Below, piece after piece: positions 30,561 to 55,371 of a stretch of 64,000 nt of DNA. The stretch comes from Miscanthus floridulus (Eukaryota; Streptophyta; Magnoliopsida; Poales; Poaceae). The stretch lies in NCBI RefSeq assembly GCF_019320115.1, contig NC_089591.1:21120502-21184501 (forward strand). The letters are read 5' to 3'. The translations under genes were made by a program, and so were the position numbers. The first letter of the stretch is position 1. The number at the start of each line of letters is the position of its first letter. The notes below the pieces were generated by a model. That model was not told the DNA's origin. It saw only the letters and a list, made by a program, of their open reading frames with translations, and searched no databases.

Positions 30561-31094
30561 TGAGGTGTAGGTGGTGGTGGATTTGAGGCACCAAAATCAA
30601 TGCTCTATACTAGATGTAATCGGACTAGGTAGTTGCAACGCTAACTAGCTCGGGGATTGCTTGAACTCAATACTTCAGCCACCGCCGAGACCTTGCCGCC
30701 AAAGCCAACTGGCTCAGTTCGATAATGTGTTCAAGCTTGTGCTTATCTTCGCTAGCAAGCAATACATAGAGAGCCATTCAGCAACCCTCGTATGTTACAT
30801 ATGGGCCACAAATGAGTTAAATGATAAAGCAAGAATGGGTCGCTCACACTTCACACCTAGTCCGTCCCATAGACTTTAGAGTTGGGCCTATGGCTCCAAG
30901 TCCCCTTCCTACCTCTAGCTTGAGTCCTTCTCCCACCGCCATCAGAATCATTAGGTTCGGTGACTTGCTCATCATCTGGTTTAGGTTTAGTGTTTCAGCA
31001 CCCATAGCTCGGCGTCGATGATAGCAGAGCACACGGATGACAGAGAGGCTGGTGGGTGAGGTGGTCATTTCTAGTGCCACCCTTTCATTGATGC
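30561..31094. other. Unclassified sequence left of the tandem array
   Basis: Probably the leader of the same decayed minus-strand gag element. The last five bases (GATGC, 31090-31094) are the left target duplication of the array element. No gene recognised. Confidence 0.5.
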
Positions 31095-32275
31095 TAATGG
31101 GGATGGGGTTCCTGATCTTCCGTCAGGTGATGGTAACTATCGTTGTGGCGGAGAATGACACACTGATCCAGCTTCAGATCGAAAGATCGAACCCTACAAT
31201 CTTAGCACCACAGCTCCTCTGGTTATCAACCAAGTCACGGACCAGGTTGACCTCGCCAAGAAGGCTAATCCCTGCCTGCGCAACGAAGAACACAAGCAAG
31301 AACGAGAAAGAAAGCAACCAAATTGTAGATGAATGATTAATCTCACGAGTTGGGGTCTCACAAACCGAAGAACGGCGAAACTGTTTCTTGACAGAATAAT
31401 CTAAGCAAAACCCCAAACCCTAAAGTAGGTGGTGGCTACTGATTATATAGCCTAAGGGACGTCCAAGGATCCCTCTTCACGTCCTAAAGGTGTCCCAACA
31501 CGTTACAAGGCCCAACGGCCCAAAAGAAGGTGTCGCAGCACCCTGACAGATTCTGGATGCTGACTTGTTTCGATGATTCCCGTTGATTCCGAAGAGCTTT
31601 TGATGTGAAACCACTTGGATTGGCTTCCTTATCAAATTATCTTTCCATCCATATGTGGATCATCGAAAACGGAGTTCGGATGCGTCCTAGGCGTCCATTT
31701 TATTGCAGACTGGTCCTGATGGCCGAGGCAGACTCAAACTCGGATTGGACTGGGCCTCTGGCTTGGCTTGGACGTCCTTGCTGGCCTCCTAAGGTGGTGG
31801 CCAAGGAGGAGGACGTCCAAGGCCATCTCTTAGGTGTTCTCCATCTTCTTGGGGCGTGCTCCAACTTGGGCCTGGGTCCCAAGGATGTCTAACAAGCCCA
31901 TGATGACAGTGTAGCTCCCGCCAGAAATAGTGACAGAATATATTGATGATTTGGAGGCCTTGTTGATGTGATATTGAGATGGAACCAGATCTATTTGAAA
32001 GCTTATCAAACAAGCTTTCCATCAAGTGCTCATTGACCTCGATCGCACTCCGGATGGATGAGTTATGGCCTTCCCAATGAGGCACTATCGGGCTACCGAC
32101 GAACTGAAAGTTCAACTTTGATGAACTTCCATTATGAAACACATTTGAACCTACAATCAAATAGTGACATGTACATGTGGAACCAAGTGAATTATAACCA
32201 AAGCCACTATGCAAATGTAGGAACGAGCGCACCTTATAATCATTGTTCATATCCGAAGGTGCCATGTCCTCATCA
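31095..32275 (-). repeat. Full 3' LTR of the array element (unit A)
   Basis: On the minus strand it starts TGATGAGGAC at 32275 and ends CCCCATTA at 31095. A PPT (AAGAAGGGGAGGA, complement of 32276-32288) precedes it, and a hairpin CAAACCGAGGACGGTTTG (complement of 32294-32311) lies just upstream of that. The last 168 bases (31095-31262) are missing from the three internal LTRs. Confidence 0.88.
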
Positions 32276-33415
32276 TCCTCCCCTTCTTGACAACAAACCG
32301 TCCTCGGTTTGGGATTAGATGAAGAAAACATTGTTGGTAGTAGCCAACATTGCTCCCCTTCTTGAAATTTAACATGTTTCTTTATAACAAAACTAGGGGA
32401 GCTCGACATGACAAGATTATAGCAATTGCAATCCTTTGGTTGATCATACTTTTGCACAATATAAGGAGATTTCAGATTTGAACAAATATAGACACGATGC
32501 ACCATATACTCTCCTTTACAATTATATTTTCCAATAAAATGATATGTATGTCTAGAGAACCATGGCAAATCAGCATATGCATAAAGTTTTTCCTCTAAAG
32601 AACTAAGATTACACAGGAACATCAAATTCAATGTAACCCAAAGTATTTAAAGAAGACAATAATTTCAGCTCATCAACTTCACTAGCATTATGAATAACAA
32701 GTCTATTTTCAGCACAAGTACTCATTTTCAGCACACATATAGCGTGATCATTCTTCAATGATTGCATGGGTATAACATAAATATCATCATGCAAGTCATC
32801 TTCATCACAAGAAACATCACGCAAATCATCTTGTGACAAAGGTAAATCAAGCGAAGGCTCCACTAAAATTTGCTCTATCATAGCATGATTGGTGGAAAAA
32901 TTCAGCACATCAAGAGAACTCTCACCTTTCATGAGTTTAGCATCGTGGGCTTTACCTTTGCTCTCATGATTAGTAGGAGTATTAGTTGATTGTTCTGAAT
33001 TGTCATATGAGACTGTGAGCATCTTATTTTCTATCACGTCATCCTCGCTCTTTTGTATATTGTCCTGCAAAAGGTTGGGCATAGCAGGAGGAATAACAAG
33101 AGATTGATCTAGTTGATGCACCTCATCATTTGAATTAATTACAAGAGATGGGTTAACAAAGGTTTCTCGCATAAGATCTTTCATATCATTCCAAGTTTGA
33201 GGTTTATCAGAAGGATCTAAAGACTCCCACCAAGATAAAGCAAAATGTCGTAAAACACTAGCTGCATTTTTTACCTTCCTCCTTGGACACATAAAGCGAG
33301 TAGCAAATATGTTATCGATGGCAATTTCCCACTCCATGTACTCATCAGCACCTATACCATCATAAGTCGGTGGATACGAACAACCTGTCATTGTAAACAC
33401 AAAAACAAGGAACAA
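31789..33415 (-). pseudogene. gag-like ORF of unit A, frameshifted
   Basis: Same protein as the ORFs of units B and C, but one extra base near 32614 (ACACAGGAAC instead of ACACGGAAC) splits it into 33415-32609 and an overlapping downstream frame ending at 31789. The N-terminal part has the gag core, the C-terminal part runs through the PPT into the 3' LTR. The rest of the frame is open, so the lesion is recent. Confidence 0.85.
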
Positions 33416-34174
33416 ACGGTGAACGTTATCCCTACCAAATAACTATGTGGTTGCAATGGTGTCACTTTTCACAGCAAGTGGAATCGTCTTACCAAGCTCT
33501 TACAAAGATTCTTACCAACGCAAGCAGTGGCGGTACAACTGGCGACTGGTTCATGATACCTATGAGGCAGTGGTACCGAGATTGCAAAGCCCTTTTTCTA
33601 TACTGATCTGAAGAATTTGTGGAGCTTGGAAGGCAAACAAAGAGTAATATGTATATCTGGCACACAAGTCAGTAACAGACAGCAATATTGAATAAATGTC
33701 CAGAGCACTTGTCCTAGTTGCTGGCCTATACGTGTTCCTATCACCAGTTGTGATAAACAAGAGAGAAAACAAGGATGAAAGGAAACAAGTATTAAAGGTA
33801 GCAACGGATATGAACAAGGCAAAAGGTACCACAAACAATAGAGCTATTGAGTGTTCCTTATGTGCTCCTTTTCGATATCTTCTATTCTCTTTTACTATTT
33901 TTTCTTTTATTTTTTGTCCAATCTTTTTTTTCTTGCTTTTGCTCTTTTGATATTTTTTTCTTAGCAAGGAGCACACAAGAATAAACCACAAAAAATTTGA
34001 GCTCAATTGAATAAAAGATGTGGCCTATAGAAAATTAGGACTGTGCTCTAAAAAGAATACCAAAACTTGTGGGCCCAGAAACTCAATTTTCCTAATCGAA
34101 TTTCGCAAATCTAATTTTTGCAAACCCAGCTTTGCTAGGATGAAATAGATCTAAAATTTTCTAGCGTTCTCTGT
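33416..34174 (-). other. Noncoding internal region of unit A with deletion junction
   Basis: Upstream (minus strand) of the ORF. It holds a pyrimidine-rich run and the junction near 34165-34175 where internal sequence passes directly into a 3'-truncated LTR without a PBS. Identical junctions lie near 37075-37085 and 39985-39995. Confidence 0.75.
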
Positions 34175-35186
34175 GGCTAATCCCTACCTGTTCAACGAAG
34201 AACACAAGCAAGAACAAGAAAGAACGCAACCAAATTGCAGATGAAAGATTAATCTCACGAGTTGGGGTCTCACAAACCGAAGAACGGCGAAACTGTTTCT
34301 TGACAGAATAATCTAAGCAAAACCCCAAACCTAATGTAGGTGGTGGCTACTGATTATATAGCCTAAGGGACGTCCAAGGATCCCTCTTCACGTCCTAAAG
34401 GTGTCCCAATACGTTACAAGGCCCAACGGCCCAAAAGAAGGTGTCGCAGCACCCTGACAGATTCTGGATGCTGAATTGTTTCGACGATTCCCGTTGATTC
34501 CGAAGAGCTTTTGATGTGAAACCACTTGGATTGGCTTCCTTATCAAATTATCTTTCTATCCATATGTGGATCATCGAAAACGGAGTTCGGATGCGTCCTG
34601 GGCATTCATTTTATTGCAGACTAGTCCTGATGGCCGAGGCAGACTCAAACTCGGATTGGACTGGGCCTCTGGCTTGGCTTGGACGTCCTTGCTGGCCTCC
34701 TAAGGTGGTGGCCAAGGAGGAGGACGTCCAAGGCCATCTCTTAGGTGTTCTCCATCTTCTTGGGGCGTGCTCCAACTTGGGCCTGGGTCCCAAGGATGTC
34801 TAACAAGCCCATGACGATAGTGTAGCTCCCGCCAGAAATAGCGACAGAATATATTGATGATTTGGAGGCCTTGTTGATGTGATATTGAGATGGAACTAGA
34901 TCTATTTGAAAGCTTATCAAACAAGCTTTCCATCAAGTACTCATTGACCTCGATCGCACTCCGGATGGATGAGTTATGGCCTTCCCAATGAGGCACTATC
35001 GGGCTACCGACGAACCGAAAGTTCAACTTTGATGAACTTCCATTATGAAACACATTTGAACCTACAATCAAATAGTGACATGTACATGTGGAACCAAGTG
35101 AATTATAACCAAAGCCACTATGCAAATGTAGGAACGAGCACACCTTATAATCATTGTTCGTATCCGAAGGTGCCATGTCCTCATCA
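34175..35186 (-). repeat. Internal LTR, truncated at its 3' end (unit B)
   Basis: 1012 bp. It starts TGATGAGGAC at 35186 and lacks the last 168 bases and the PBS. The TATA region is retained. Confidence 0.88.
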
Positions 35187-36325
35187 TCCTCCCCTTCTTG
35201 ACAACAATCCGTCCTCGGTTTGGGATTAGATGAAAAAAACATTGTTGGTAGTAGCCAACATTGCTCCCCTTCTTGAAATTTAACATGTTTCTTTATAACA
35301 AAACTAGGGGAACTCGACATGACAAGATTATAGCAATTGCAATCCTTTGGTTGATCATACTTTTGCACAATATAAGGAGATTTCAGATTTGAACAAATAT
35401 AGACACGATGCACCATATACTCTCCTTTACAATTATATTTTCCAATAAAATGATATGTATGTCTAGAGAACCATGGCAAATCAGCATATGCATAAAGTTT
35501 TTCCTCTAAAGAACTAAGATTACACGGAACATCAAATTCAATGTAACCCAAAGTATTTAAAGAAGACAATAATTTCAGCTCATCAACTTCACTAGCATTA
35601 TGAATAACAAGTCTATTTTCAGCACAAGTACTCATTTTCAGCACACATATAGCGTGATCATTCTTCAATGATTGCATGGGTATAACATAAATATCATCAT
35701 GCAAGTCATCTTCGTCACAAGAAACATCACGCAAATCATCTTGTGACAAAGGTAAATCAAGCGAAGGCTCCACTAAAATTTGCTCTATCATAGCATGATT
35801 GGTGGAAAAATTCAGCACATCAAGAGAACTCTCACCTTTCATGAGTTTAGCATCGTGGGCTTTACCTTTGCTCTCATGATTAGTAGGAGTATTAGTTGAT
35901 TGTTCTGAATTGTCATATGAGACTGTGAGCATCTTATTTTCTATCACGTCATCCTCGCTCTTTTGTATATTGTCCTGCAAAAGGTTAGGCATAGCAGGAG
36001 GAATAACAAGAGATTGATCTAGTTGATGCACCTCATCATTTGAATTAATTACAAGAGATGGGTTAACAAAGGTTTCTCGCATAAGATCTTTCATATCATT
36101 CCAAGTTTGAGGTTTATCAGAAGGATCTAAAGACTCCCACCAAGATAAAGCAAAATGTCGTAAAACACTAGCTGCATTTTTTACCTTCCTCCTTGGACAC
36201 ATAAAGCGAGTAGCAAATATGTTATCGATGGCAATTTCCCACTCCATGTACTCATCAGCACCTATACCATCATAAGTCGGTGGATACGAACAACCTGTCA
36301 TTGTAAACACAAAAACAAGGAACAA
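34700..36325 (-). CDS. Gag-like protein, nonautonomous CRM-like element, unit B (541 aa)
   Basis: Intact 541-codon frame. Residues about 1-95 form a gag core (YPPTYDGIGADEYMEWEIAI; MCPRRKVKNAASVLRH; WWESLDPSDKPQTWNDMK). About 95-265 is an acidic, Ser/Asn-rich linker. About 265-380 is a Cys/aromatic-rich part (LEEKLYAYADLPWFSRHTYH) I do not recognise. The frame then crosses the PPT, enters the LTR at EDDEDMAP and ends 162 codons inside it at a Pro-rich tail. There is no zinc knuckle, protease, RT or integrase. A gag N-terminus suggests particle or RNA binding; the rest is unassigned. The first Met may not be the true start, since an acceptor-like TTTACAATGACAG overlaps it. Confidence 0.75.
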   Translation of the reverse strand: MFLVFVFTMTGCSYPPTYDGIGADEYMEWEIAIDNIFATRFMCPRRKVKNAASVLRHFALSWWESLDPSDKPQTWNDMKDLMRETFVNPSLVINSNDEVHQLDQSLVIPPAMPNLLQDNIQKSEDDVIENKMLTVSYDNSEQSTNTPTNHESKGKAHDAKLMKGESSLDVLNFSTNHAMIEQILVEPSLDLPLSQDDLRDVSCDEDDLHDDIYVIPMQSLKNDHAICVLKMSTCAENRLVIHNASEVDELKLLSSLNTLGYIEFDVPCNLSSLEEKLYAYADLPWFSRHTYHFIGKYNCKGEYMVHRVYICSNLKSPYIVQKYDQPKDCNCYNLVMSSSPSFVIKKHVKFQEGEQCWLLPTMFFSSNPKPRTDCCQEGEDDEDMAPSDTNNDYKVCSFLHLHSGFGYNSLGSTCTCHYLIVGSNVFHNGSSSKLNFRFVGSPIVPHWEGHNSSIRSAIEVNEYLMESLFDKLSNRSSSISISHQQGLQIINIFCRYFWRELHYRHGLVRHPWDPGPSWSTPQEDGEHLRDGLGRPPPWPPP

Positions 36326-37084
36326 ACGGTGAACGTTATCCCTACCAAATAACTATGTGGTTGCAATGGTGTCACTTTTCACAGCAAGTGGAATCGTCTT
36401 ACCAAGCTCTTACAAAGTTCTTACCAACGCAAGCAGTGGCGGTACAACTGGCGACTGGTTCATGATACCTATGAGGCAGTGGTACCGAGATTGCAAAGCC
36501 CTTTTTCTATACTGATCTGAAGAATTTGTGGAGCTTGGAAGGCAAACAAAGAGTAATATGTATATCTGGCACACAAGTCAGTAACAGACAGCAATATTGA
36601 ATAAATGTCCAGAGCACTTGTCCTAGTTGCTGGCCTATACGTGTTCCTATCACCAGTTGTGATAAACAAGAGAGAAAACAAGGATGAAAGGAAACAAGTA
36701 TTAAAGGTAGCAACGGATATGAACAAGGCAAAAGGTACCACAAACAATAGAGCTATTGAGTGTTCCTTATGTGCTCCTTTTCGATATCTTCTATTCTCTT
36801 TTACTATTTTTTCTTTTATTTTTTTGTCCAATCTTTTTTTTCTTGCTTTTGCTCTTTTGATATTTTTTTCTTAGCAAGGAGCACACAAGAATAAACCACA
36901 AAAAATTTGAGCTCAATTGAATAAAAGATGTGGCCTATAGAAAATTAGGACTGTGCTCTAAAAAGAATACCAAAACTTGTGGGCCCAGAAACTCAATTTT
37001 CCTAATCGAATTTCGCAAATCTAATTTTTGCAAACCCAGCTTTGCTCGGATGAAATAGATCTAAAATTTTCTGGCGTTCTTTGT

Positions 37085-38096
37085 GGCTAATCCCTACCTG
37101 CGCAACGAAGAACACAAGCAAGAACAAGAAAGAACGCAACCAAATTGCAGATGAAAGATTAATCTCACGAGTTGGGGTCTCACAAACTGAAGAACGGCGA
37201 AACTGTTTCTTGACAGAATAATCTAAGCAAAACCCCAAACCTAATGTAGGTGGTGGCTACTGATTATATAGCCTAAGGGACGTCCAAGGATCCCTCTTCA
37301 CGTCCTAAAGGTGTCCCAACACGTTACAAGGCCCAACGGCCCAAAAGAAGGTGTCGCAGCACCCTGACAGATTCTGGACGCTGACTTGTTTCGACGATTC
37401 CCGTTGTTTCCGAAGAGCCTTTGATGTGAAACCACTTGTATTGGCTTCCTTATCAAATTATCTTTCCATCCATATGTGTATCATCAAAAACGGAGTTCGG
37501 ATGCGTCCTGGGCGTCCATTTTATTGCAGACTGGTCCTGATGGCCGAGGCAGACTCAAACTCGGATTGGACTGGGCCTCTGGCTTGGCTTGGACGTCCTT
37601 GCTGGCCTCCTAAGGTGGTGGCCAAGGAGGAGGACGTCCAAGGCCATCTCTTAGGTGTTCTCCATCTTCTTGGGGCGTGCTCCAACTTGGGCCTGGGTCC
37701 CAAGGATGTCTAACAAGCCCATGACGATAGTGTAGCTCCCGCCAGAAATAGCGACAGAATATATTGATGATTTGGAGGCCTTGTTGATGTGATATTGAGA
37801 TGGAACTAGATCTATTTGAAAGCTTATCAAACAAGCTTTCCATCAAGTACTCATTGACCTCGATCGCACTCCGGATGGATGAGTTATGGCCTTCCCAATG
37901 AGGCACTATCGGGCTACCGACGAACCGAAAGTTCAACTTTGATGAACTTCCATTATGAAACACATTTGAACCTACAATCAAATAGTGACATGTACATGTG
38001 GAACCAAGTGAATTATAACCAAAGCCACTATGCAAATGTAGGAACGAGCACACCTTATAATCATTGTTCGTATCCGAAGGTGCCATGTCCTCATCA
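37085..38096 (-). repeat. Internal LTR, truncated (unit C)
   Basis: 1012 bp, nearly identical to that of unit B, with the same truncation point. Confidence 0.88.
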
Positions 38097-39235
38097 TCCT
38101 CCCCTTCTTGACAACAATCCGTCCTCGGTTTGGGATTAGATGAAAAAAACATTGTTGGTAGTAGCCAACATTGCTCCCCTTCTTGAAATTTAACATGTTT
38201 CTTTATAACAAAACTAGGGGAACTCGACATGACAAGATTATAGCAATTGCAATCCTTTGGTTGATCATACTTTTGCACAATATAAGGAGATTTCAGATTT
38301 GAACAAATATAGACACGATGCACCATATACTCTCCTTTACAATTATATTTTCCAATAAAATGATATGTATGTCTAGAGAACCATGGCAAATCAGCATATG
38401 CATAAAGTTTTTCCTCTAAAGAACTAAGATTACACGGAACATCAAATTCAATGTAACCCAAAGTATTTAAAGAAGACAATAATTTCAGCTCATCAACTTC
38501 ACTAGCATTATGAATAACAAGTCTATTTTCAGCACAAGTACTCATTTTCAGCACACATATAGCGTGATCATTCTTCAATGATTGCATGGGTATAACATAA
38601 ATATCATCATGCAAGTCATCTTCGTCACAAGAAACATCACGCAAATCATCTTGTGACAAAGGTAAATCAAGCGAAGGCTCCACTAAAATTTGCTCTATCA
38701 TAGCATGATTGGTGGAAAAATTCAGCACATCAAGAGAACTCTCACCTTTCATGAGTTTAGCATCGTGGGCTTTACCTTTGCTCTCATGATTAGTAGGAGT
38801 ATTAGTTGATTGTTCTGAATTGTCATATGAGACTGTGAGCATCTTATTTTCTATCACGTCATCCTCGCTCTTTTGTATATTGTCCTGCAAAAGGTTAGGC
38901 ATAGCAAGAGGAATAACAAGAGATTGATCTAGTTGATGCACCTCATCATTTGAATTAATTACAAGAGATGGGTTAACAAAGGTTTCTCGCATAAGATCTT
39001 TCATATCATTCCAAGTTTGAGGTTTATCAGAAGGATCTAAAGACTCCCACCAAGATAAAGCAAAATGTCGTAAAACACTAGCTGCATTTTTTACCTTCCT
39101 CCTTGGACACATAAAGCGAGTAGCAAATATGTTATCGATGGCAATTTCCCACTCCATGTACTCATCAGCACCTATACCATCATAAGTCGGTGGATACGAA
39201 CAACCTGTCATTGTAAACACAAAAACAAGGAACAA
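37610..39235 (-). CDS. Gag-like protein, unit C (541 aa)
   Basis: 541-codon frame with one visible residue change from unit B (Pro to Leu in SLVIPLAMPN). The two units are 2910 bp apart base for base, so B and C are the newest duplicates. Domains as in unit B: gag core, acidic linker, unassigned Cys/aromatic region, LTR-encoded tail. Confidence 0.75.
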   Translation of the reverse strand: MFLVFVFTMTGCSYPPTYDGIGADEYMEWEIAIDNIFATRFMCPRRKVKNAASVLRHFALSWWESLDPSDKPQTWNDMKDLMRETFVNPSLVINSNDEVHQLDQSLVIPLAMPNLLQDNIQKSEDDVIENKMLTVSYDNSEQSTNTPTNHESKGKAHDAKLMKGESSLDVLNFSTNHAMIEQILVEPSLDLPLSQDDLRDVSCDEDDLHDDIYVIPMQSLKNDHAICVLKMSTCAENRLVIHNASEVDELKLLSSLNTLGYIEFDVPCNLSSLEEKLYAYADLPWFSRHTYHFIGKYNCKGEYMVHRVYICSNLKSPYIVQKYDQPKDCNCYNLVMSSSPSFVIKKHVKFQEGEQCWLLPTMFFSSNPKPRTDCCQEGEDDEDMAPSDTNNDYKVCSFLHLHSGFGYNSLGSTCTCHYLIVGSNVFHNGSSSKLNFRFVGSPIVPHWEGHNSSIRSAIEVNEYLMESLFDKLSNRSSSISISHQQGLQIINIFCRYFWRELHYRHGLVRHPWDPGPSWSTPQEDGEHLRDGLGRPPPWPPP

Positions 39236-39994
39236 ACGGTGAACGTTATCCCTACCAAATAACTATGTGGTTGCAATGGTGTCACTTTTCACAGCAAGTG
39301 GAATCGTCTTACCAAGCTCTTACAAAGTTCTTACCAACGCAAGCAGTGGCGGTACAACTGGCGACTGGTTCATGATACCTATGAGGCAGTGGTACCGAGA
39401 TTGCAAAGCCCTTTTTCTATACTGATCTGAAGAATTTGTGGAGCTTGGAAGGCAAACAAAGAGTAATATGTATATCTGGCACACAAGTCAGTAACAGACA
39501 GCAATATTGAATAAATGTCCAGAGCACTTGTCCTAGTTGCTGGCCTATACGTGTTCCTATCACCAGTTGTGATAAACAAGAGAGAAAACAAGGATGAAAG
39601 GAAACAAGTATTAAAGGTAGCAACGGATATGAACAAGGCAAAAGGTACCACAAACAATAGAGCTATTGAGTGTTCCTTATGTGCTCCTTTTCGATATCTT
39701 CTATTCTCTTTTACTATTTTTTCTTTTATTTTTTTGTCCAATCTTTTTTTTCTTGCTTTTGCTCTTTTGATATTTTTTTCTTAGCAAGGAGCACACAAGA
39801 ATAAACCACAAAAAATTTGAGCTCAATTGAATAAAAGATGTGGCCTATAGAAAATTAGGACTGTGCTCTAAAAAGAATACCAAAACTTGTGGGCCCAGAA
39901 ACTCAATTTTCCTAATCGAATTTCGCAAATCTAATTTTTGCAAACCCAGCTTTGCTGGGATGAAATAGATCTAAAATTTTCTAGCGTTCTCTGT

Positions 39995-41006
39995 GGCTAA
40001 TCCCTACCTGCGCAACGAAGAACACAAGCAAGAACAAGAAAGAACGCAACCAAATTGCAGATGAAAGATTAATCTCACGAGTTGGGGTCTCACAAACCGA
40101 AGAACGGCGAAACTGTTTCTTGACAGAATAATCTAAGCAAAACCCCAAACCTAATGTAGGTGGTGGCTACTGATTATGTAGCCTAAGAGACGTCCAAGGA
40201 TTCCTCTTCATGTCCTAAAGGTGTCCCAACACGTTACAAGGCCCAACGGCCCAAAAGAAGGTGTCGCAGCACCCTGACAGATTCTGGATGCTGATTTGTT
40301 TCGAAGATTCCTGTTGATTTCGAAGATCCTTTGATGTGAAACCACTTGGATTGGCTTCCTTATCAAATTATCTTTCCATCCATATGTGGATCATCGAAAA
40401 CGGAGTTCGGATGCGTCCTGGGCGTCCGTTTTATTGCAGACTGGTCCTGATGGCCGAGGCAGACTCGAACTCGGATTGGACTGTGCCTCTGGCTTGGCTT
40501 GGACGTCCTTTCTGGCCTCCTAAGGTGGTGGCCAAGGAGGAGGATGTCCAAGGCCATCTCTTAGGTGTTCTCCATCTTCTTGGGGCGTGCTCCAACTTAG
40601 GCCGGGGTCCCAAGGATGTCTAACAAGCCCATGACGACAGTGTAGCTCCCGCCAGAAATAGCGACAGAATATATTAGTAATTTGGAGGCCTTGCCGACGT
40701 GATATTGCGATGGGACCAGATCTATTTGAAAGCTTATCAAACAAGCTTTCCATCAAGTGCTCATTGACCTCGATCGCACTCCGGATGGATGAGTTATGGC
40801 CTTCCCAATGAGGCACTGTCGGGCTGCCGACGAACCAAAAGTTCAACTTTGATGAACTTCCATTATGAAACACATTTGAACCTACAATCAAATAGTGACA
40901 TGTACATGTGGAACCAAGTGAATTATAACCAAAGCCACTATGCAAATGTAGGAACGAGCACACCTTATAATCATTGTTCATATCCGAAGGTGCCATGTCC
41001 TCATCA
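39995..41006 (-). repeat. Internal LTR, truncated (unit D)
   Basis: 1012 bp, same truncation point as in B and C, but with more substitutions. Confidence 0.87.
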
Positions 41007-42148
41007 TCCTCCCCTTCTTGACAACAAACCATCCTCGGTTTGGGATTAGATGAAGAAAACATTGTTGGTAGTAGCCAACATTGCTCCCCTTCTTGAAATT
41101 TAACATGTTTCTTTATAACAAAACTAGGGGAACTCGACATGACAAGATTATAGCAATTACAATCGTTTGGTTGATCATACTTTTGCTCAATATAAGGAGA
41201 TTTCAGATTTGAACAAATATAGACACGATGCACCATATACTCTCCTTTATAATTATATTTTCCAATAAAATGATATGTATGTCTAGAGAACCATGGCAAA
41301 TCAGCATATGCATAAAGTTTCTCCTCTAAAGAACTAAGATTACACGGAACATCAAATTCAATGTAACCCAAAGTATTTAAAGAAGACAACAATTTCATCT
41401 CATCAACTTCACTAGCATTATGAATAACAAGTCTATTTTTAGCATAAGTGCTCATTTTTAGCACACATATAGCATGATCATTCTTCAATGATTGCATGGG
41501 TATAACATAAATATCATCATGCAAGTCATCTTTGTCATAAGAAACATCAAGCAAGTCATCTTTTGACAAAGGTAAATCAAGCGAATGCTCCACTAAAATT
41601 TGCTCTATCATAGCATGATTGGTGGAAAAATTCAGCACATCAAGAGAACTCTCACCTTCTGTGAGTTTAGCATCATGGGCATTACCTTTGCTCTCATGTT
41701 CAGCAGGGGTAATAGTTGATGGTTCTGAATTTTCACATGAGGCTGTGAGCTTCTCATTTTCTGTCACGTCATCCTTGCTCTTTTCTACATTGTCCTGCAA
41801 AAGGTTAGGCATAGCAGGAGGAATAACAACTGACTCTTCCTCTAAATGGTGCACCTCATCATATGAAGTCAAAACAGGAGGTGGATTAACAAAGGTTTCT
41901 CGCATAAGAAGTTTCATATCATTCCAAGTTTGAGGTTTATCAGAAGGATCTAAAGACTCCCACCAAGATAAAGCAGAATGTCGTAAAACACTAGTTGCAT
42001 TTTTTACCTTCCTCCTTGGACACATAAAGCGAGTAGCAAATATGTTATCGATGGCAATTTCCCACTCCATGTACTCATCAGCACCTATACCATCATAAGT
42101 CGGTGGATACGAACAACCTATCATTGTAAACACAAAAACAAGGAACAA
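40520..42148 (-). CDS. Gag-like protein, unit D (542 aa)
   Basis: The most divergent copy and the one nearest the 5' LTR. The gag core is nearly identical to B and C, while the linker differs at many positions (for example VLTSYDEVHHLEEESVVIPP against VINSNDEVHQLDQSLVIPP) with one codon gained, yet the frame stays open. That pattern suggests the sequence was under coding selection before or between duplications. It also runs into the LTR and lacks pol domains. Confidence 0.78.
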   Translation of the reverse strand: MFLVFVFTMIGCSYPPTYDGIGADEYMEWEIAIDNIFATRFMCPRRKVKNATSVLRHSALSWWESLDPSDKPQTWNDMKLLMRETFVNPPPVLTSYDEVHHLEEESVVIPPAMPNLLQDNVEKSKDDVTENEKLTASCENSEPSTITPAEHESKGNAHDAKLTEGESSLDVLNFSTNHAMIEQILVEHSLDLPLSKDDLLDVSYDKDDLHDDIYVIPMQSLKNDHAICVLKMSTYAKNRLVIHNASEVDEMKLLSSLNTLGYIEFDVPCNLSSLEEKLYAYADLPWFSRHTYHFIGKYNYKGEYMVHRVYICSNLKSPYIEQKYDQPNDCNCYNLVMSSSPSFVIKKHVKFQEGEQCWLLPTMFSSSNPKPRMVCCQEGEDDEDMAPSDMNNDYKVCSFLHLHSGFGYNSLGSTCTCHYLIVGSNVFHNGSSSKLNFWFVGSPTVPHWEGHNSSIRSAIEVNEHLMESLFDKLSNRSGPIAISRRQGLQITNIFCRYFWRELHCRHGLVRHPWDPGLSWSTPQEDGEHLRDGLGHPPPWPPP

Positions 42149-42912
42149 ATAGTGAAGATTATCCCTAATAATCCTACTACGCAGGTGGAGTGGTGCTGCC
42201 TCTCAAGATCACAGCAAAAGGAAACACCTTATCAAGCTCTTACAAGGTTCTTACCAACGCAAAGCAGTGGACGGTACAACCGGTGGCTGGTACATGATAC
42301 CTATGAGGGTGTGACACCAAGATTGCAAGGGTCTTTTTCTATACCGATCTGAAGTATATGTGGAGCTTAGGAGGCACACAAAAAAACAAATATGTATATG
42401 TGGCACACAAGTCAGTGACAGACAGCAATATTGAATAAATGTCCAGAGCACTTGTCCTAGTTGCTGGCCTATACGTGTTCCTATCACCAGTTGTGATAAA
42501 CAAGAGAGGAAACGAGGATGAAAGGAAACAAGTATTAAAGGTAGCAATGGATATGAACAAGGCAAAAGGTACCACAAACAATAGAGCTATTGAGTGTTCC
42601 TTATGTGCTTCTTTTTGATATCTTCTATTCTCTTTTACTATTTTTTTCTTTTTTTTTGTCCAATATTTTTTTCTTGCTTTTGCTCTTTTGATATTTTTTC
42701 TCAGCAAGGAGCACACAAGAATAAACCACAAAAAATTTGAGCTCAATTGAATAAAAGATGTGGCCTATAGAAAATTAGGACTGTGCTCTAAAAAGCATAC
42801 CAAAACTTGTAGGCCCAGAAACTCAATTTTCCTAATCGAATTTCACAAATCTAATTTTTGTGAACCCAGCAACGCTGGGATGAAATAGATCTAAAATTTT
42901 CTGGCGTTCTCC
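42149..42912 (-). other. 5' internal region of unit D
   Basis: Noncoding leader part shared with units A-C. A donor-like TTG/GTAAGA occurs near 42262 and an acceptor-like site at the ORF start, but joining them does not give a frame shared by all units. Confidence 0.55.
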
Positions 42913-43883
42913 GTAGATATAAAATTTTTCCCGTTTCGAGTTCGGATGCAAAAGTTATGACTGTTTTAAGGAAGCTGCTCGAATAAGGGTTTTAGTGGAC
43001 ACAAGATGCAAACCGATGGTGATACGGAATAGCGGTGGGTGAAGGGATCAACACAAACTAGAAAAGAACACAATCTAAACCAGCAACAAGAATTTGACCT
43101 AGGACACAAACTCAACAAAGCGGACTCTGAAACTGAAATATGCAAAGGCTATGGCGCGAAAGGTTCTAGGACAGGAAAAACGAGTATGGCACTGGACTAT
43201 AGGATGAATGCGAAACACTCAAGTGAGGGAATAAATGTGAACCTGATGGTATACCTTAGCTCTGATTACCACTTAATGGGGATGGGGATCCCGATCTTCT
43301 GTCAGGTGATAGTAACTATCGTTGTGGCGGAGAATGACACACCGATCCGGCTTCAGATCGAAAGATCGAACCCTGTAATCTTAGCACCATAGCTCCTCTG
43401 TAGATATAAAATTTTCTCCGTTTCGAGTTCGGATGCAAAAGTTATGACTGTTTTACGGAATCTGCTCGAATAAGGGTTTTAGTGGACACAAGATGCAAAC
43501 CGATGGTGATACAGAATAACGGTGGGTGGAGGGATCAACACAAACTAGAAAAGAACACAATCTAAACCAGCAACAAGACTTTGACCTAGGACATAAACTC
43601 AACAACAGAATCTGAAACTGAAATATGCAAAGGCTATGGCACGGAAGGTTCTAGGATAGGAAATAAAAGTATGGCATTGGACTATAGGACGAATGCAAAA
43701 CTCTCAAACTAGGGAATAAAAGTGAACCTGACGGTATACCTTAGCTCTGATACCACTTAATGGGGACGGGGTTCCCGATCTTCCGTCAAGTGATGGTAAC
43801 TATCGTTGTGGCGGAGAATGACACACCGATCCGGCTTCAGATCGAAAGATCGAACCCTGCAATCTTAGCACCACAGCTCCTCT
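42913..43883 (-). repeat. 487-bp tandem duplication of LTR end, PBS and leader
   Basis: Two direct copies, 42913-43399 and 43400-43883. Each holds the last about 125 bases of the LTR, the PBS and the adjacent leader. The PBS in the copy farther from the 5' LTR has an extra base (complement of 43259-43271, TGGTAATCAGAGC); the other is perfect. Confidence 0.85.
43744..43755 (-). other. Primer binding site of the array element
   Basis: On the minus strand TGGTATCAGAGC (initiator tRNA-Met type) begins 2 nt after the LTR end CCCCATTA. It is the only intact PBS in the 13.8-kb structure. Confidence 0.92.
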
Positions 43884-44938
43884 GGTTATCAACCAAGTCA
43901 TGAACCAAGTTGACCTCACCAAGAAGGCTAATTCCTGCCTACGCAACGAAGAACACAAGCAAGAACAAGAAAGAAAGCAACCAAATTGCAGATGAATGAT
44001 TAATCTCACGAGTTGGGGTCTCACAAACCGAAGAACGGCGAAACTGTTTCTTGACAGAATAATCTAAGCAAAACCCCAAACCCTAAAGTAGGTGGTGGCT
44101 ACTGATTATATAGCCTAAGGGACGTCCAAGGATCCCTCTTCATGTCCTAAAGGTGTCCCAACACGTTACAAGGTCCAACGGCTCAAAAGAAGGTGTCACA
44201 GCACCCTGATAGATTCTGGACGCTGACTTGTTTTGACAATTCCCGTTGATTCCAAAGAGCTTTTGATGTGAAACCACTTGGATTGGCTTCCTTATCAAAT
44301 TATCTTTCCATCCATATGTGGATCATTGAAAACGGAGTTCGGATGTGTCCTGGGCGTCCGTTTTATTGCAGACTGGTCCTGATGACCGAGGCAGACTCGA
44401 ACTCGGATTGGACTGGGCCTCTGGCTTGGCTTGGACGTCCTTACTGGCCTCCTAAGGTGGTGGCCAAGGAGGAGGATGTCCAAGGACATCTCTTAGGTGT
44501 TCTCCATCTTCTTGGGGCATGCTCCAACTTGGGCCTAGGTCCCAAAGATGTCTAACAAGCCTATGACGATAGTGTAGCTCCTGCCAGAAATAGCGATAGA
44601 ATATATTGATGATTTGGAGGCCTTGTTGATGTGATATTGAGATGGAACCAGATCTATTTGAAAGCTTATCAAACAAGCTTTCCATCAAGTGCTCATTGAC
44701 CTCGATCGCACTCCGGATGGATGAGTTATGGCCTTCCCAATGAGGCACTATCGGGCTGCCGACGAACCGAAAGTTCAACTTTGATGAACTTCCATTATGA
44801 AACACATTTGAACCTACAATCAAATAGTGACATGTACATGTGGAACCAAGTGAATTATAACCAAAGCCACTATGCAAATGTAGGAACGAGCGCACCTTAT
44901 AATCATTGTTCGTATCCAAAGGTGCCATGTCCTCATCA
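43758..44938 (-). repeat. Full 5' LTR of the array element
   Basis: 1181 bp, the same length as the 3' LTR. It starts TGATGAGGAC at 44938 and ends CCCCATTA at 43758. A TATA box (TATATAAT, complement of 44105-44112) drives leftward transcription. The 5-bp flank GACGC follows at 44939-44943. Confidence 0.88.
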
Positions 44939-44991
44939 GACGCCACTGCCCCACGCCGAATCAATGCTGTTGATCTACCCCACCTCACGCC
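44939..44991. other. Short target remnant between array and solo LTR
   Basis: 53 bases including the right target duplication GACGC; probably continuation of the sequence left of 31090. Confidence 0.5.
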
Positions 44992-47900
44992 TGTAACACC
45001 TTGGGTGTTTAAATATTAAAACCTGCCATGTCATCATATGCATTGCAAAGCATTTGGCATTTAGTGAAAATTTTGATATGCATACAGTAAAACAAGTTTA
45101 CCTTTATGTGGTATGTGTTGAATTGTATTGTTTGAATCAAGTTCAAAATTTGGTTTGGATTTGAATTTTTAAGAAAACCCTTATTTTCAACATTTAAATC
45201 CTACCCTGAAAACCCATTTCAAAATCTAAGCACATTTTGGGGTTGAGCCTTAAAGCAAAAGTGTAGAGCTTGTCAAGTTATACAAAGTTTGTTTTTGGAG
45301 TTTTCAAAGTTATGAAAAATTTGAAGTAATTTGAAAAGGCGTAATTCGTTAAATGTCCTCTATTTGAATTCAAAAGTGTATTTCAAAATGTAGACCGAAT
45401 TAGGGGGTGGTTATAAAAGCAAAGTTGTAGAACTTTGGATTTTGAGCAACTTTTATTTTTGGAGATTTTTTAGTTGTTATACAAATTTGGGAGTAATTTG
45501 AATTTTAAAATGGATGGTAGTTCTGTAAATATGGTGAACAGTGTCATGACCACCGCCCCACCGTCGGCGTTCCTTCTCTGGCGTTCCAGTTGCGTCTGTG
45601 ACCACCCTCGGCTTCGTGCTGGCATGAGCTGGTCACTGCATGTCGCCTCCTTGCTCTCTTTGCCGTTCTATAAATCTCAGACGACGTCGCCGTTCTTCAT
45701 TTCGCTGCTCTGTTTTTCCCGTTGCCTTACTCATCTCCAGCGAGCCATCGTCGTCGAACCAGCGCTAGTGCTGTTGTAGCAAAGTGCCCAATAGCTTCGC
45801 CTACTCGTTGGGCATCCATCTAGCTAGCTTGGGTCATCTGATTTTGTTAGGAAACCGCTATGAGCACCCTTCTTCCTCGCGGTCGACAACCTCACCAGAG
45901 ATCCCGTTTCACCATGGCCAGCGTCCTCCGGTGAGCCGTTGCCCTAGATCAGTGTACCTATGGCTTTGTCTCGATGCCGTGGTGCTTAATCCCTTGTTGC
46001 TTGGTCATTTTGCCCACTGCAGTCACTGGAACACCGTCACCGACGATCCTTGCTCCGACGTGATCACTGTGGACGTCTACCCGCGTCGCCGTTGCTCCTC
46101 TAGTCTCGCTCTTTGCTTCAACATGTTCGGGGTGAGCTACTGATGCTTCCTGAGCCATTTATTTAATTGCTACTAGTCTCTTGTCGCCGAGCCACCGCAT
46201 TTGCCATGGCCGGCGTCAGGCTTGTTTTGTGTTGTAATTAATCTTCGTAATGCCTCAAATCGATGCGCCTAGTCTTGGTGAGTGTTTTGGTACCTTGGCC
46301 GTCGCCGTTGGACTCATCGTCAGCGAGTTTGCGTCGATCAGCGCTGTCGCCGTCGTGGTCAAAGCTAGAGGTTGAAGATGACAAGTGGGACCCGATGTCA
46401 GTGACTGTGTAGTTCAAAATGAATTTTCTGTTTTCCAGATTTGAATGAATAGTGATGTAATTTGTTATATTTGTGTAGATTTATTTAGAGCTCCAAAAAT
46501 TATGAAAATTTTTGTGTGACCTCTCTATGATGAATACTATTTAGGAAAAATATGAAATGTTATTTTTCAGCACTTTTTGAATGTGATAACAATTGCTCAA
46601 TTAATTAATAAATGGGTTTCCATGATTTTTCTAGGCTTAATTAATTATCCAAAAATTATGAAAATGGTTTTGCCACTTAGTTATCATGTGATGAAAATTT
46701 AAAAAAAAAATTGAGCTCAATTGGAATAAGTTGATTTATTTCATAATTTTGAATTAAATAATTAATTCATAAAAGCAAATAGTAACCTTTAATAATTTAG
46801 GTTTTGTTTGAAATTTTGGATTGAGTGATGACCTTGAATCATTAGTTGGTAATTATCCTTGGCAATTGATGCATGTGTTACGAAAAAGATTTAGTTCGTT
46901 TGACTTGCAACTGTACCACAAAGGAAAGTTGTATTCGAGTTGTTAATTTTTGCATCCATCATCGAGCATCATGTTTCGTATCTCGCATCATGTTAAACAT
47001 AGCATTGTTACTACGTGTAGTGAACGAAGGTGAACACATGGTAGTTAATCAAGTTGCGGAGGAAGTTAATCCATCTATTGAGGTCGGATTGGATACTTGT
47101 GGAACGTCGTAGGAACCTAACTTTTCTGTCAACGAAGGCAAGCCCTGGATGCATTTAACCCTACCTTGTGTTTTACAAATTTTATCACTTTTGCTTTTAT
47201 ATACTGCATTAAGTGATTAGGAGTCAAGTGAAAACCTAATTGGTGCATTACCAACCTTGTTTTTCCATATCTACCTTGTTACCAGTTTTAATTCGAAAAT
47301 GACTAGTTATGCTTAGTCCTGCTTAGCCGGGTGATTACCTATCACCTGCAAGTTTTAAATGGATCTTTGGTTACTTATGTTATCATAAGATATGAGCATG
47401 TGAAGTAATAAATCTAGACCGGGCGGACTCGATGTGTGAGAGCCACAAGACATGGAGGTCTTATGAGCGGCTTCTTTCCGCCTGTGTCAATTAAGGTCCG
47501 TCCGTTGTTGAATTGCATGAGATGAGACTTTGTAGTACTAACCACATACTCTGGTAAGCCTTAACTTGGCTATTCTATTACGAGAATGGCTACTCACGCA
47601 CTAGGAGTGGAGAGATGGTGGGAATAGCATGTACCCACATGGCAATAGGCCAGATTGGTGGAGTACTGTATTCTCGGGTGGCGCGGACCCATTCTTATTT
47701 TAGAAGATCCGAGGGTAGATTGATATATGTAAGTCGGGGACCTGCATATGTCGTGTGGTTTGGAATCCCTAGCTAGGTTTAATCGGTTCGAATCATCATT
47801 GCTCCTCGGTTATGGAGACTCAACTCACTGTTCATCATCGTAGTTAATAACTGGAACTTGAGAAAGGTTTGAGAAAGAGATTGATATGAAGTTCATGATC

Positions 47901-48552
47901 TCATTACAGATCATGGCAGATTCATATGTGGTACTTATAAAGTTTTACATGTTCAGATAAAGAATTTTGTGAAAGAGCTTTTACGCAAAAGAACTTTGAT
48001 TATTGCTAAAGCCATACCTTGAATCCCTGAGCCTGCATTCCAGAGTCTTCTCAGTTTTTATTTCGGTTAAGTCTTGTTGAGTACTTTTGTACTCAGGGTT
48101 TGTTGACCCTTGTTGCAGGTGAGCCTCATGAGCAGGTCTATTTTGGACCCTGCTGCATGACTATTTTTCCTGTCGATGATGATAAGTGAATGTGTGATCC
48201 TTGGGTAGGATGCTTATTTTGTGTGTTATGTTTATGTTAATTATGCTACTCCACTACTACTATGGTTTGTAATAATTATCGAACTTAGTTTGTAAGGTTT
48301 GAAACAACTAGTTTATAAACTATGTTATCGTAAGACTTCCACTATTTTACTCTGATATATATATTTGAATAAATGTTGTGATACTGCAATGACTCTGTAA
48401 TGTGATCCTGCTCGGAAATCATGGATGATTCGGGGTTCCCTAAGGACACCCGAGAAACTTCTTAAGTTACCAGGAACATATGCATAGTTGTCAAAGGTCG
48501 TTGGACAGTGATAAGTGCATGTGAATCCTATAATTTAGGAGGTTCTGCCATA
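44992..48552 (+). repeat. Tekay-type solo LTR, about 3.56 kb
   Basis: It starts TGTAACACCTTGGGTG and ends GGTTCTGCCATA, the same termini as the Tekay LTRs apart from CA to TA. It has a TATA box (CTATAAAT near 45668), a GC-rich leader, donor-like GGTGAGCTAC at 46131 and the double hairpin at 48078-48109. Neither PBS nor PPT adjoins it, so it is a solo LTR. Flanks ACGCC and GCACC match at three of five bases, so the target duplication is uncertain. It is closer to the Tekay-2 LTR than to the Tekay-1 LTR. Confidence 0.82.
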
Positions 48553-50899
48553 GCACCCCACTCTATTCATCGATGAAGACTGGGTGAATGTGTAGTAGCA
48601 ACACCAACATGTTGGCCCCTACATGTTTGCTCTGAGGGACTAGGATCTCTCCTAAAGGATTTGGGCTAGGTGGATGAGGTCGGCGAGTGGTGCGGTAGGT
48701 GGAGGAAGGCATGGGTGTAACACCCAAACCCATTAGTATCCTATAGTAGTTGTGAAGTTGGCCCATGTGGCCCAAGTGGCACATGTTGATATGTTGTTGG
48801 TGGGTTTAGTACTATCTTGGAAGTTTAGGAGGGTGAGAGCCAGCTTATAAGCCTTGTCGTTCCAAACATAGCACCTCTAGATTAACCCTTTAACACGAAG
48901 CGAGGACGAAAGTGTAAGCGAGGTGCTTTGCATATGTAGGCCCGTTCGACATGCGGAGTTGGGCCATATAATTAGTTTTAGACATGGGGTGTTACAACAG
49001 GTGGCTTGGTAAGGAAGCCGACATCCCGAGGAGTGGAAGGAGGAGTGGTGTTGGCCAAGGGAGTAGTGGGTGGAGGGCAGAGGCGATGATAAGATGGAGA
49101 CCGGCACCTTTCTCGATGCTCGTGGCTCACTCGGCGAGGTAGATAGGTCATATAGCCTGACTACCCGAGTGCGTTCATGAATCTTCACAAGCACCTAGTT
49201 TTCCTTCTTAATGGGCAACAGACCCACTACGGACGGTTCAACTTAATCCAACGACTAACAAGTTAGTAGGCGACGTAGCCTAATCGGGTGACTGAGCTTG
49301 GCTGATCTACCATTACCCATATTTTTGTACACCATTTATTGATCCCTCTATGCCATGTCGATGCATTTTTTGGGCCACACAATCCCACCTCACCGCCATC
49401 AGACTTCGCGTACAAAACCAAGACAGAACCATGCAAACATGTATGACACGCATTGGAGACTTGTACTTGTACATACCAACACATGCAACATGAAGCCCAC
49501 ACATGCAAACATGCTGCTTGCACGCCCTAGCAGAGTACTAGTTTGGAGGCCGCTAGGCCGAGAGTTCAGGATAGGGGTCGTGCCGCTAGATCTAGCGTGG
49601 AGTTGACCTGGAGGATCATGAGAGCGGTGAGCTCGCCAAGGGATGATAGGACTAGTGTCTAGATCTGGTGCAGGGCCATGGGTCTAGCTAGTGGCAAGGG
49701 GTTAGGGTGGTGGACGACCAGCAGTAGGAGTCAACTAGAGAAGATGAAGAACAAGGTCATCCATGGTGCTCCTCAATGGAAAAGAGAAAGGGTTAGGGGA
49801 ACGATCAATAGGCATGGATTTGCACAACCAAGTATAGCACGATGTAGATAACAAAGGGAGCTACCTTGTGGTGGTCATGGTTGATGTTGCAATGCGATAG
49901 TTTGGTCAGAAAAGCTCGACGGAGAGTTCGCTAAAAACCTAGCTGTGGAGAACTTCGACTTTAGATGTAGGAGGCTACGGGTGGCAGCATGAGAATGGAT
50001 TGTACTTCTGCAACAAGATCATCGGCATATATATTGGTTGGGTTTTCGATAGGTGAAAAAACCAGATATTTTATTATTTTTAGAATTAATTAATTTTGTG
50101 AATAAAATAATTCTAGAAAATCCTAGAATTATTTGTCATGAAAAACACTCCGAAAGCTTTGAAAATTTGGGAAAATTTTTAGAGACATTTTGGAGTATAA
50201 GGGACCCAAACAAAGTATTTGAAGCTTATGAAAAGATATTTTGGAGCATCGAAAAATTATATTATACTCGCAGAAAAGTGGGAAAAGTTCTAGAAAAGCT
50301 GAAATAATTCTTAGGATGTTTGTAGAGATAGGTTGATGAATAATGAACTCAAATGAGTTAGTTGGATTATAGATAAAAGATTTTGGGAAACTCCAAATGA
50401 AATAAGGAATTTGATGATAGAAAAAGACGGAGACAAGCCAAAAAAGATAAATGACTTACTAAACGTGTTTTGAAAACTTTACGCACTCACAACAAAAAGT
50501 CAAGCAAAAGCATGTGAAATTAAATTTAGAAAAATTTGAAATTTCATATTTTTCTACAACTAAATTTGTGCTTGGTCAAACTAAACTTAGTAAATTTTAT
50601 CAAAATATTAAAATCATTCAGTTTATTTTGTGTTTTCTACTCACAACCTAAAACCAAAACTTTTAGGGTGTGACAAACAGCACTGCCAAGCCCTCATCAA
50701 GGAATACCTACAACAACCAAACCAAGGTATGGCTTCTGCATCTATAGTTACAAACATTAATAGGTTGCAAAGACAGATGATACACAACGCTACAAGGACT
50801 ACACCAATGCCTCCCCTTTATAGGACCATGCTACCGGCACTTCTACCAGGACCAAGGAGTCACTCTGATGCCTCAACAGCCCCAGATCAAACTCATCAT
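48553..50899. other. Mosaic of degraded repeat fragments, no gene recognised
   Basis: It contains a 281-bp unit with inverted ends (48716-48996) and GC-rich unclassified DNA to about 50040. An AT-rich stretch ends GGGTGTGACA at 50675; read on the minus strand it begins TGTCACACCCTAAAAG, like the start of a gypsy LTR. An unidentified 220-base piece (50676-50899) follows. Short ORFs here show no family signature. Confidence 0.5.
48716..48996. repeat. 281-bp element with TGTAACACCC / GGGTGTTACA ends
   Basis: Perfect 10-bp inverted termini beginning TG and ending CA. It is compatible with a small solo LTR (TRIM-like) or a miniature element. No clear target duplication flanks it. Confidence 0.5.
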
Positions 50900-51741
50900 C
50901 ACTACTAGATTTATAGGGGCGGCTCTTGATGATTCGGAGGGGTGGTTTTGCCAACCGCCCGTACCAAAAGGGTGGCTAAAAATGGCTGATTTATAGGTGC
51001 AGTTGGCCAGCCGCTCCTATAAATCGGATTTATAGGGGCGGCTCAATATTCAACCGCTCCTATAAATCCGTTTCAAAAAAATTCACAAATTTGGGCGAAA
51101 AAATAGGATTTTTTTAATCCGGGGAGGCCCCCACTGGTCACCTAGGGTCATGCACTTCTTCGCGTGACTCCACGGCCGGTGGGGTTGAAACCCATGAACT
51201 TGGGCTCGTGCGTCCCCTTCTCTAACCACTCCACCCATCACTCACTTGTGTCCATAATTGATTTTCTGTACCCGCATATTATGCTAAACTGAGTTTAAAT
51301 TGACTGATTGAGGCCTTAAACAAATTCAAATTGTAACACACTAAAAATTTTCATGGTTTTAAAATAGGAGAAAATGATTTAATTATGCATTTTGTGAGCA
51401 TTGAAATTTTGAAAAATAATAACTTTATTAAAATTAAAATCAAATATAGGTCTACATACATGTCTATGCACTCACGCTGCTACATATTATTTTTGAATTG
51501 TGGTTTGAAATCAAACTTCAAATTGATTTGAATTTGTATTTCAAAATTGGTTTGGAAAATTAGAAAAAAAGAGAAAGGATTTTTCTCCCTCCCTTGCTTT
51601 CAGCCTGTTGGCTCAGCTCCCGCCGGCCCAGCCTCGCTCGCGCAGCCCATCTCACTTGTGCTTTCTCCCATAGTGGCCAGCTGGCGGCCTAGTAGTGCGC
51701 TGCGCCGTTCCTCTCATGCACCCTGAGTCGCTGACCAATCG
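50900..51741. mobile_element. CACTA (En/Spm) transposon end, extent unknown
   Basis: It begins CACTACTAGATTTATAGGGG at 50900. Two subterminal inverted pairs follow: GATTTATAGG with CCTATAAATC at 50988-51025 and again at 51027-51068. A CACTA start with repeated GATTTATAGGGGCGG motifs is typical of grass CACTA elements. From 51069 the sequence is noncoding and AT-rich, then GC-rich near 51600. Tekay-2 interrupts it at 51742. The other end was not found, so how far it reaches past 63557 is unknown. Confidence 0.7.
51737..51741. other. Target site duplication AATCG of Tekay-2 (left)
   Basis: AATCG here and at 63553-63557 flank the element exactly. Confidence 0.95.
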
Positions 51742-55336: not shown

Positions 55337-55371
55337 ATCCTTCCCCCTAAAAGAAATCTCGCCCCGAGATT
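55337..55371 (-). other. Polypurine tract and hairpin of Tekay-2
   Basis: On the minus strand AATCTCGGGGCGAGATT (7-bp stem, loop GGG) precedes TTTTAGGGGGAAGGAT and the LTR start. The stem is identical to that of Tekay-1 while the loop differs. Confidence 0.85.

Follow-up and report, generated by a model that had tools for sequence, protein, structure and literature searches.

The analysed window was a 64,000-nucleotide stretch of the Miscanthus floridulus genome (C12:21120502-21184501 of a 2.68-Gb, 2,420-contig assembly), and it contained a 13.8-kb tandem array of a long terminal repeat (LTR) retrotransposon on the minus strand at positions 31095-44938. Self-comparison resolved five LTRs alternating with four internal regions, and the start-to-start spacings of the LTRs were 2911, 2910, 2910 and 3932 bp. 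In the order of the element, the array consisted of LTR A, a first copy of the 5' untranslated region (5'UTR), a 127-bp LTR end, a second 5'UTR copy, internal region i4, LTR B, i3, LTR C, i2, LTR D, i1 and LTR E. The outer LTRs A (43758-44938) and E (31095-32275) were full length (1181 bp each), and the inner LTRs B (39995-41006), C (37085-38096) and D (34175-35186) were 1012 bp each with one common truncated end. The internal regions were located at 41007-42910 (i4), 38097-39994 (i3), 35187-37084 (i2) and 32276-34174 (i1). The array was not due to chance, since kilobases of sequence were repeated at >90% identity.

The 3932-bp unit contained a second, diverged version of the final 127 bp of the LTR and of about 360 bp of 5'UTR. 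Namely, LTR A was followed after 2 bases by an intact primer binding site, TGGTATCAGAGC (43744-43755), which we take to be of the tRNA-Met type, and 5'UTR copy 1 occupied 43401-43757. Next came an LTR end of 127 bp (columns 1055-1181; 43274-43400), another primer binding site that was longer by one base (43259-43271) and 5'UTR copy 2 (42911-43273), which led into i4. This second copy of U5 and 5'UTR, together with the separate origin of i4 and a short ACAGAG motif described below, went beyond the original prediction, which had been made from the sequence alone and had described one element expanded in place.

A single integration bounding the array was supported by the closeness of A and E and by the flanks. 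The array was followed on the 3' side of the element by GATGC at 31090-31094 (GCATC on the element strand) and preceded on the 5' side by GACGC at 44939-44943 (GCGTC on the element strand), so that the target duplication, read directly, matched at 4/5 positions with one CpG-type transition. Exact 5-bp duplications were found in 11/13 two-LTR relatives from the same genome with the same LTR ends (the exceptions were L017 with 3/5 and L023 with 1/5), which showed that the LTR ends used here were right. A and E aligned without gaps over 1181 bp at 96.1% identity and differed by 45 transitions and 1 transversion, compared to a minimum of 2 and a median of 9 transversions in 875 between-locus pairs from 43 LTRs of different fetched loci. 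Between the units there was no LTR-end junction and no 5-bp insertion duplication; only ACAGAG was present at both edges of the fragment discussed below. Alignment and direct reading therefore bore out much of the original prediction: the number, strand and spacing of the LTRs and internal regions, the 1181-bp outer LTRs with their near-identical flanks and the lack of target duplications between inner units, with support for the single integration. The substitutions between A and E were also unusually biased. In the part common to all five LTRs, 19/20 private changes of A were C to T or G to A, and the 45:1 ratio was unusual (p 0.004) against the 224 transitions and 51 transversions between the own LTRs of 16 single family elements; our guess was strong cytosine deamination at the array locus.

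The internal regions i4 and i1-i3 differed in origin, and so did the two 5'UTR copies. The mutual divergence of i1-i3 was 0.2-0.4%, and their distance to i4 was 6.9-7.0%, including 46-48 transversions; between i4 and i3 there were 47 transversions in 1894 columns, versus 1 in 1181 for the outer LTR pair. In trees with 21 internal regions of other loci from the same genome, the approximately unbiased (AU) test rejected monophyly of the four internal regions in four segments (columns 1-500, p 4e-4; 501-800, p 1e-57; 1001-1300, p 6e-54; 1301-1900, p 9e-4). The two 5'UTR copies were not sisters either (AU p 7e-4): copy 2 joined L026, which was also nearest to i4 in columns 501-800, and copy 1 joined L024. 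At the protein level, the linker of i4 was 94% identical to P0002 and 70-71% identical to i1-i3, and the linker tree joined i4 with P0002 (0.92) and i1-i3 with P0005 and P0006 (0.96). The gag core showed no synonymous divergence between i4 and i3, compared to 0.14 in the linker. LTR B was distinct as well: A, C, D and E shared rare letters at columns 189, 313 and 330 (present in 3, 7 and 7 of 43 LTRs), and B had the majority letters of the family there. The view that all units were copies of one element was thus contradicted by the internal regions, by the 5'UTR copies and by the other haplotype of B. We refer to the resident element as Y (LTRs A and E, i1-i3 and, by its position, 5'UTR copy 1) and to its sister element as X (5'UTR copy 2, i4 and LTR B).

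The putative X fragment was located at 39995-43400. It was 3406 bp long, which corresponded to an LTR-plus-internal unit minus ~41 bp of LTR: it began at LTR column 1055 and ended at column 1012-1013, about 41 bp short of a full turn. The fragment edge and the inner LTR-internal junctions coincided at one 5'UTR position. At the left edge, copy 1 terminated with ..ATATCTA, and the next letters, CAGAGGAGC, belonged to an LTR end. In LTRs B, C and D the final letters were ..GGATTAGCC, and those after them were ACAGAGAACG in i3 and i1 and ACAAAGAACG in i2. The undisturbed join within the fragment read ..ATATCTACGGAGAACG.., and the two edges were complementary to it; therefore, removal of the fragment restored a continuous join between 5'UTR and internal region. 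The simplest reading was that a single 3406-bp insertion accounted for both junctions. ACAGAG at both edges can be considered either as a short duplication or, for five of its letters, as microhomology. With up to 4 mismatches, the normal join was found at 22 places in 19/23 fetched stretches and the two novel joins in 0/23. In the genome search with up to 2 mismatches, the right junction occurred at 3 places and the left junction at 1, all inside this array and none elsewhere in the 2.68-Gb assembly; in this search some stretches read as N, and the genome-wide counts may be lower bounds. The original prediction had correctly noted that the inner LTRs were cut at the same base, and the end of a captured fragment explained this cut better than the expansion did. 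Two other origins were also considered. A tandem duplication of U5 and 5'UTR within the 5' unit was ruled out for the UTR since its copies were not sisters, and an RNA-derived end of LTR B was not favoured, as the junction lacked a poly(A) tract.

LTRs C and D were chimeric, with an E-like U3 and a B-like R-U5. At the sites distinguishing B from E, both matched E through column 829 and B from column 852 on, with the TATA box at column 827 and the switch between 829 and 852. There were six exceptions: E alone deviated at columns 171, 345, 372 and 587, whereas B agreed with C and D at column 47 and with C at column 678. Rare common letters followed the same division (540T in C, D and E, present in 3/43 LTRs; 852A and 1002T in B, C and D, present in 1/43 each). 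The LTR trees grouped C, D and E in U3 (support 89; with A, 71) and B, C and D in R-U5 (88); the C+D+E group was rejected in R-U5 (p 9e-5), and a clade of all five LTRs was rejected in U3 (p 0.04). The LTR, internal and UTR trees were of the quick kind, and the B+C+D and C+D+E groups were chosen from site patterns of the same data. Likewise, our first permutation test (p 0.0008 and 0.0002) counted letters private to one copy and was therefore too sharp. Since C and D looked like chimeras of E and B, unequal exchange at the DNA level was supported as the explanation of units 1-3, which upheld this part of the predicted DNA-level expansion; for i4 and B, on the other hand, copying from the inserted element was not supported. 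The position near the U3/R border would also suit a switch during reverse transcription, and a single event cannot decide between the two. The TATA box was TATATAA in A, C, D and E and was changed to TACATAA in B, so the prediction of a promoter in every unit was almost right, at the level of sequence.

Based on these observations, we hypothesized, with a probability of roughly 60%, that Y inserted once, captured a fragment of X in its 5'UTR and was then built into an array by unequal exchange between B and E. First, Y, a non-autonomous CRM-like gypsy element, would have integrated with LTRs A and E and a 5-bp target duplication. A DNA break in the Y 5'UTR would then have been sealed with the 3406-bp piece of X, comprising the 127-bp LTR end, the primer site, the 5'UTR, i4 and, as LTR B, the initial 1012-1013 bp of an LTR. 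Such a capture would have set a second LTR in the middle of the element. Subsequent unequal exchange between B and E may have duplicated the Y internal region and LTR twice, so that the new LTRs C and D would combine the U3 of E with the truncated R-U5 of B, giving a 2910-bp unit with neither primer site nor 5'UTR. Later conversion between units would have homogenised i1-i3. The break, the assignment of copy 1 to Y and the order and number of exchanges were inferred from this arrangement. The piece of X might have been a linearised one-LTR circle, being a unit less ~41 bp, and copying or cutting from an X element or array would fit too. Element-derived circles have been reported in plants. We only tentatively suggest that a circle of the sister element was captured in the resident's break and that the extra LTR made the resident expandable.

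A number of observations weighed against this scheme or blurred it. In columns 801-1000, outside the four segments of the AU tests, i4 and i1-i3 were almost equal, and therefore the mosaic was finer than two blocks; in the protein, residues 29-97 had no synonymous change between i4 and i1-i3, and outside the linker the X/Y split was weak in the two later parts. The family itself was mosaic, which blurred some source assignments: when all relatives were scanned for X or Y letters, no clean partition was found and both letters occurred at 50/71 positions. Namely, L025, the nearest relative of i1-i3, carried a copy-2-type UTR, and L024 and L027, which grouped with copy 1, changed sides from i1-i3 (columns 501-800) to i4 (columns 1001-1300); the assignment of copy 1 to Y therefore relied chiefly on its position beside A. 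The 127-bp LTR end was uninformative on its source (7 differences from A and 9 from E, with 6 between A and E). The sister relation of A and E was nominally rejected in the short R-U5 part (p 0.03) and not in U3 (p 0.56), and A and B had two CpG-type changes in common, at columns 462 and 796 (2 and 3 of 43 LTRs). For the chimeras, the supports of 88-89 fell short of the strong mark of the tool, and the breakpoint test on shared sites alone gave p 0.026. Moreover, C and D had 0 differences in the first 563 columns and 15 in the last 450, with almost equal internal regions on either side, so one exchange was insufficient; conversion spanning an internal region and U3 would give this pattern, as proposed for CRM1TR (PMC3648361). 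The circle rested on a coincidence of length, with a chance of ~7% by our estimate. Capture possibly preceded integration, in a donor that has since been lost, and the structure was that given by the assembly.

Among the alternatives, one rather unlikely history started from an ordinary mixed X/Y array with full inner LTRs that later suffered two deletions, one removing an internal region plus LTR after copy 1 and another removing U5 and UTR after B. Such starting arrays existed, since tandem arrays with full inner LTRs were present in 4/20 stretches first fetched (L011, L016, L021 and L024), a proportion that overstated their frequency because one array may bring in several places. Successive deletions with a common UTR end point have also been proposed for CRM1TR and CRM4TR (PMC3648361). 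However, two independent events would need one common breakpoint within a few bases, none of the 20 stretches had a deletion ending there, and the shortened copies (L012, L016 and a diverged piece of L023) broke elsewhere. A comparably unlikely history was that the X/Y composite was made beforehand, by template switching or by transcription of a one-LTR circle, and was inserted whole, with the later units added in place. This would account for A being of the E type although it adjoined X sequence, and circle-derived tandem transcripts were proposed in PMC11899658. Against it, both junctions were confined to this array in the assembly (a lost donor would still allow for this), and a template switch returning to the exact base that it had left would be odd.

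Copying of all four units in place by unequal exchange or slippage, after a single insertion, was very improbable. The single outer target duplication and LTR pair, the near-identity of i1-i3, the chimeric nature of C and D and the similar look of three other fully spanned arrays agreed with it. The failure of the four internal regions to form one clade, the excess of transversions between i4 and i3 over the outer LTR pair, the non-sister UTR copies and the other alleles of B did not; simple copying in place of the whole array was rejected, and for i4 and B this reading was refuted unless both had been replaced by ectopic conversion. An assembly error, with units duplicated or haplotypes joined, was equally hard to credit: i3 with the U3 of C was near-identical to i2 with the U3 of D over ~2.4 kb, but B, C and D differed at 15-39 of 1012 bases and i1 had indels of its own, which indicated that they were not one copied stretch. 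Finally, two adjacent insertions fused through LTR-LTR recombination were most improbable, since the two sources and the nominal rejection of A and E as sisters in R-U5 were outweighed by the outer target duplication with its one CpG-type transition, by A and E being closer in transversions than any between-locus pair and by inner junctions lying off the LTR ends.

With respect to the family, the fetched stretches defined a normal element as an LTR of 1181 bp, a 5'UTR of ~360 bp, an internal region of ~1.9 kb and a second LTR. In the array, 3/4 units had open frames of 550-560 aa running from the internal region into the LTR, all on the minus strand: a gag-like frame of 560 aa (stop to stop) from i4 into B (40520-42202), a gag-like frame of 550 aa from i3 into C (37610-39262) and a frame of 550 aa from i2 into D (34700-36352). 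In i1 the frame was interrupted and split over two overlapping open reading frames (ORFs). Of the two frames scanned, that of i3 matched the gag profile PF03732 with 25.2 bits, just over the curated cut-off of 24.1, and that of i4 with 20.3 bits, below it. These two frames gave only gag-like matches, no pol frame, protease, reverse transcriptase or integrase was found, and the element was taken as non-autonomous because no pol frame was seen. Few of the 81 protein relatives had a named source (Panicum and rice), and the rice ones were often labelled as Ty3-gypsy or centromere-specific retrotransposons. No relatives were confirmed in viral contigs.

Among the matches listed, LTR places numbered 41 and were distributed over 18 contigs, with 40 scored out of 8370 candidates and one lying near the end of C3. 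The 20 stretches cut around the best LTR matches covered 25 of the 40 listed places outside the window, leaving out C269 and 14 lower-ranking places. Three other arrays, on C3 and C16 (three LTRs each) and on C13 (four), were fully spanned and had a 5/5 target duplication and full inner LTRs, and their internal regions were closer to each other than their LTRs were. The window array was the exception, with 6.9% for i4 versus 3.9% for the outer LTRs. An array on C6, not fully spanned and not counted among the complete ones, had internal regions differing by 1.7% and LTRs by 1.4-2.5%. The C13 array (C13:55944000-55959900; L031, L016) consisted of four full LTRs and three internal regions in 2555-bp units, all of which shared an inverted 5'UTR piece and an internal deletion, and had a perfect target duplication, GTGTT. 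The three-LTR arrays at C3:54857000-54872900 and C16:42718300-42734200 (L011, L029, L024, L030) had complete inner LTRs and primer sites and exact target duplications, ACTAA and CAAAC; the C3 units were 0.09% apart in the internal region. At L014:550-9819, two family copies were opposed with their 3' LTRs facing, with ~43 bp between the aligned ends and both LTR ends slightly short.

The rest of the window contained other repeats. Self-comparison revealed two gypsy elements with LTRs of ~3.6 kb at 1-11525 and 51734-63553; the former was cut by the window edge, and the LTR pair of the latter was 99.1% identical. A single LTR related to these elements (44992-48553) began 53 bp from the array. 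The search for short-period tandem repeats (<=500 bp) in the window returned 11 rows, with no long array among them. A 28-bp tandem repeat in 6.5 copies was present at 15228-15409.

Tandem LTR arrays with one target duplication were already known (PMC11899658 and others). Tandem LTR-retrotransposon structures, in which gypsy elements were favoured, have been described in rice and other plants (Morales-Diaz et al. 2025, PMC11899658), and their origin was left open there between complex insertion and recombination. Similar to those arrays, LTRs and internal regions alternated here, with shared inner LTRs and a single outer target duplication. Unlike them, steps of the history were legible here in the sister-element internal region, the one illegitimate junction and the TATA-box chimeras. 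In arrays of in-place copies the internal regions would coalesce after insertion, whereas i4 was not a sister of i1-i3. CRM1TR and CRM4TR are tandem repeats derived from maize centromeric retrotransposons, with monomers of LTR and UTR pieces, and 187 full-length CRM1TR monomers were extracted (Sharma et al. 2013, PMC3648361). As described there, they shared with our array the broad element type, an LTR part joined to a 5'UTR point, and conversion and homogenisation between units. However, the unit here was a truncated LTR plus internal region in three copies, its junction was best explained by an inserted fragment rather than by deletions, and only the 5' unit had a U5-UTR repeat, whose UTR copies were not sisters, in place of the LTR-part-plus-5'UTR monomer.

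Multi-LTR forms are also known for Cassandra and Wukong, which are terminal-repeat retrotransposons in miniature (TRIMs) whose LTR-internal arrays were attributed to LTR-LTR recombination or concatemers (PMC7215508, PMC4528315); Wukong is 532 bp long with two 230-bp LTRs, and its multi-LTR elements mostly had a target duplication (PMC4528315). Unlike TRIMs, which have no coding frame in these accounts, the array had a coding frame, truncated inner LTRs and one unit of other origin. In its features the family resembled CRM group A, which was reported to have LTRs with a TGATG start and a T/CATCA end, 5-bp target duplications, a coding frame that reaches the 3' LTR and a primer site of the tRNA-Met type (Neumann et al. 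2011, PMC3059260), and CRM subfamilies recombine frequently (Sharma and Presting 2014, PMC4079200). It shared the TGATG terminus, the 5-bp duplication, the frame into the 3' LTR and an A-rich stretch before the frame. The primer site presumably agreed as well. In contrast to the group A features reported, the LTR ended with CATTA rather than CATCA, one change, and protease, reverse transcriptase and integrase were not found in the frames seen. Concentration at centromeres is a further feature of group A; the 41 listed copies were spread over 18 contigs.

We found no description of a fragment-capture route to an LTR array in the literature searched. Many arrays were too homogeneous to tell whether they grew by exchange in place or were inserted as a concatemer. 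In this array, two sources that can be told apart and a unique illegitimate junction served as markers separating insertion, capture and exchange, and the scoring used, in which inner LTRs were grouped on either side of the U3/R border, could be applied to every array in long-read genomes. If a circle of the sister element was indeed captured, uptake of extrachromosomal element DNA would offer tandem and satellite-like arrays with truncated LTRs a general way to start, as an alternative to intrastrand deletion.

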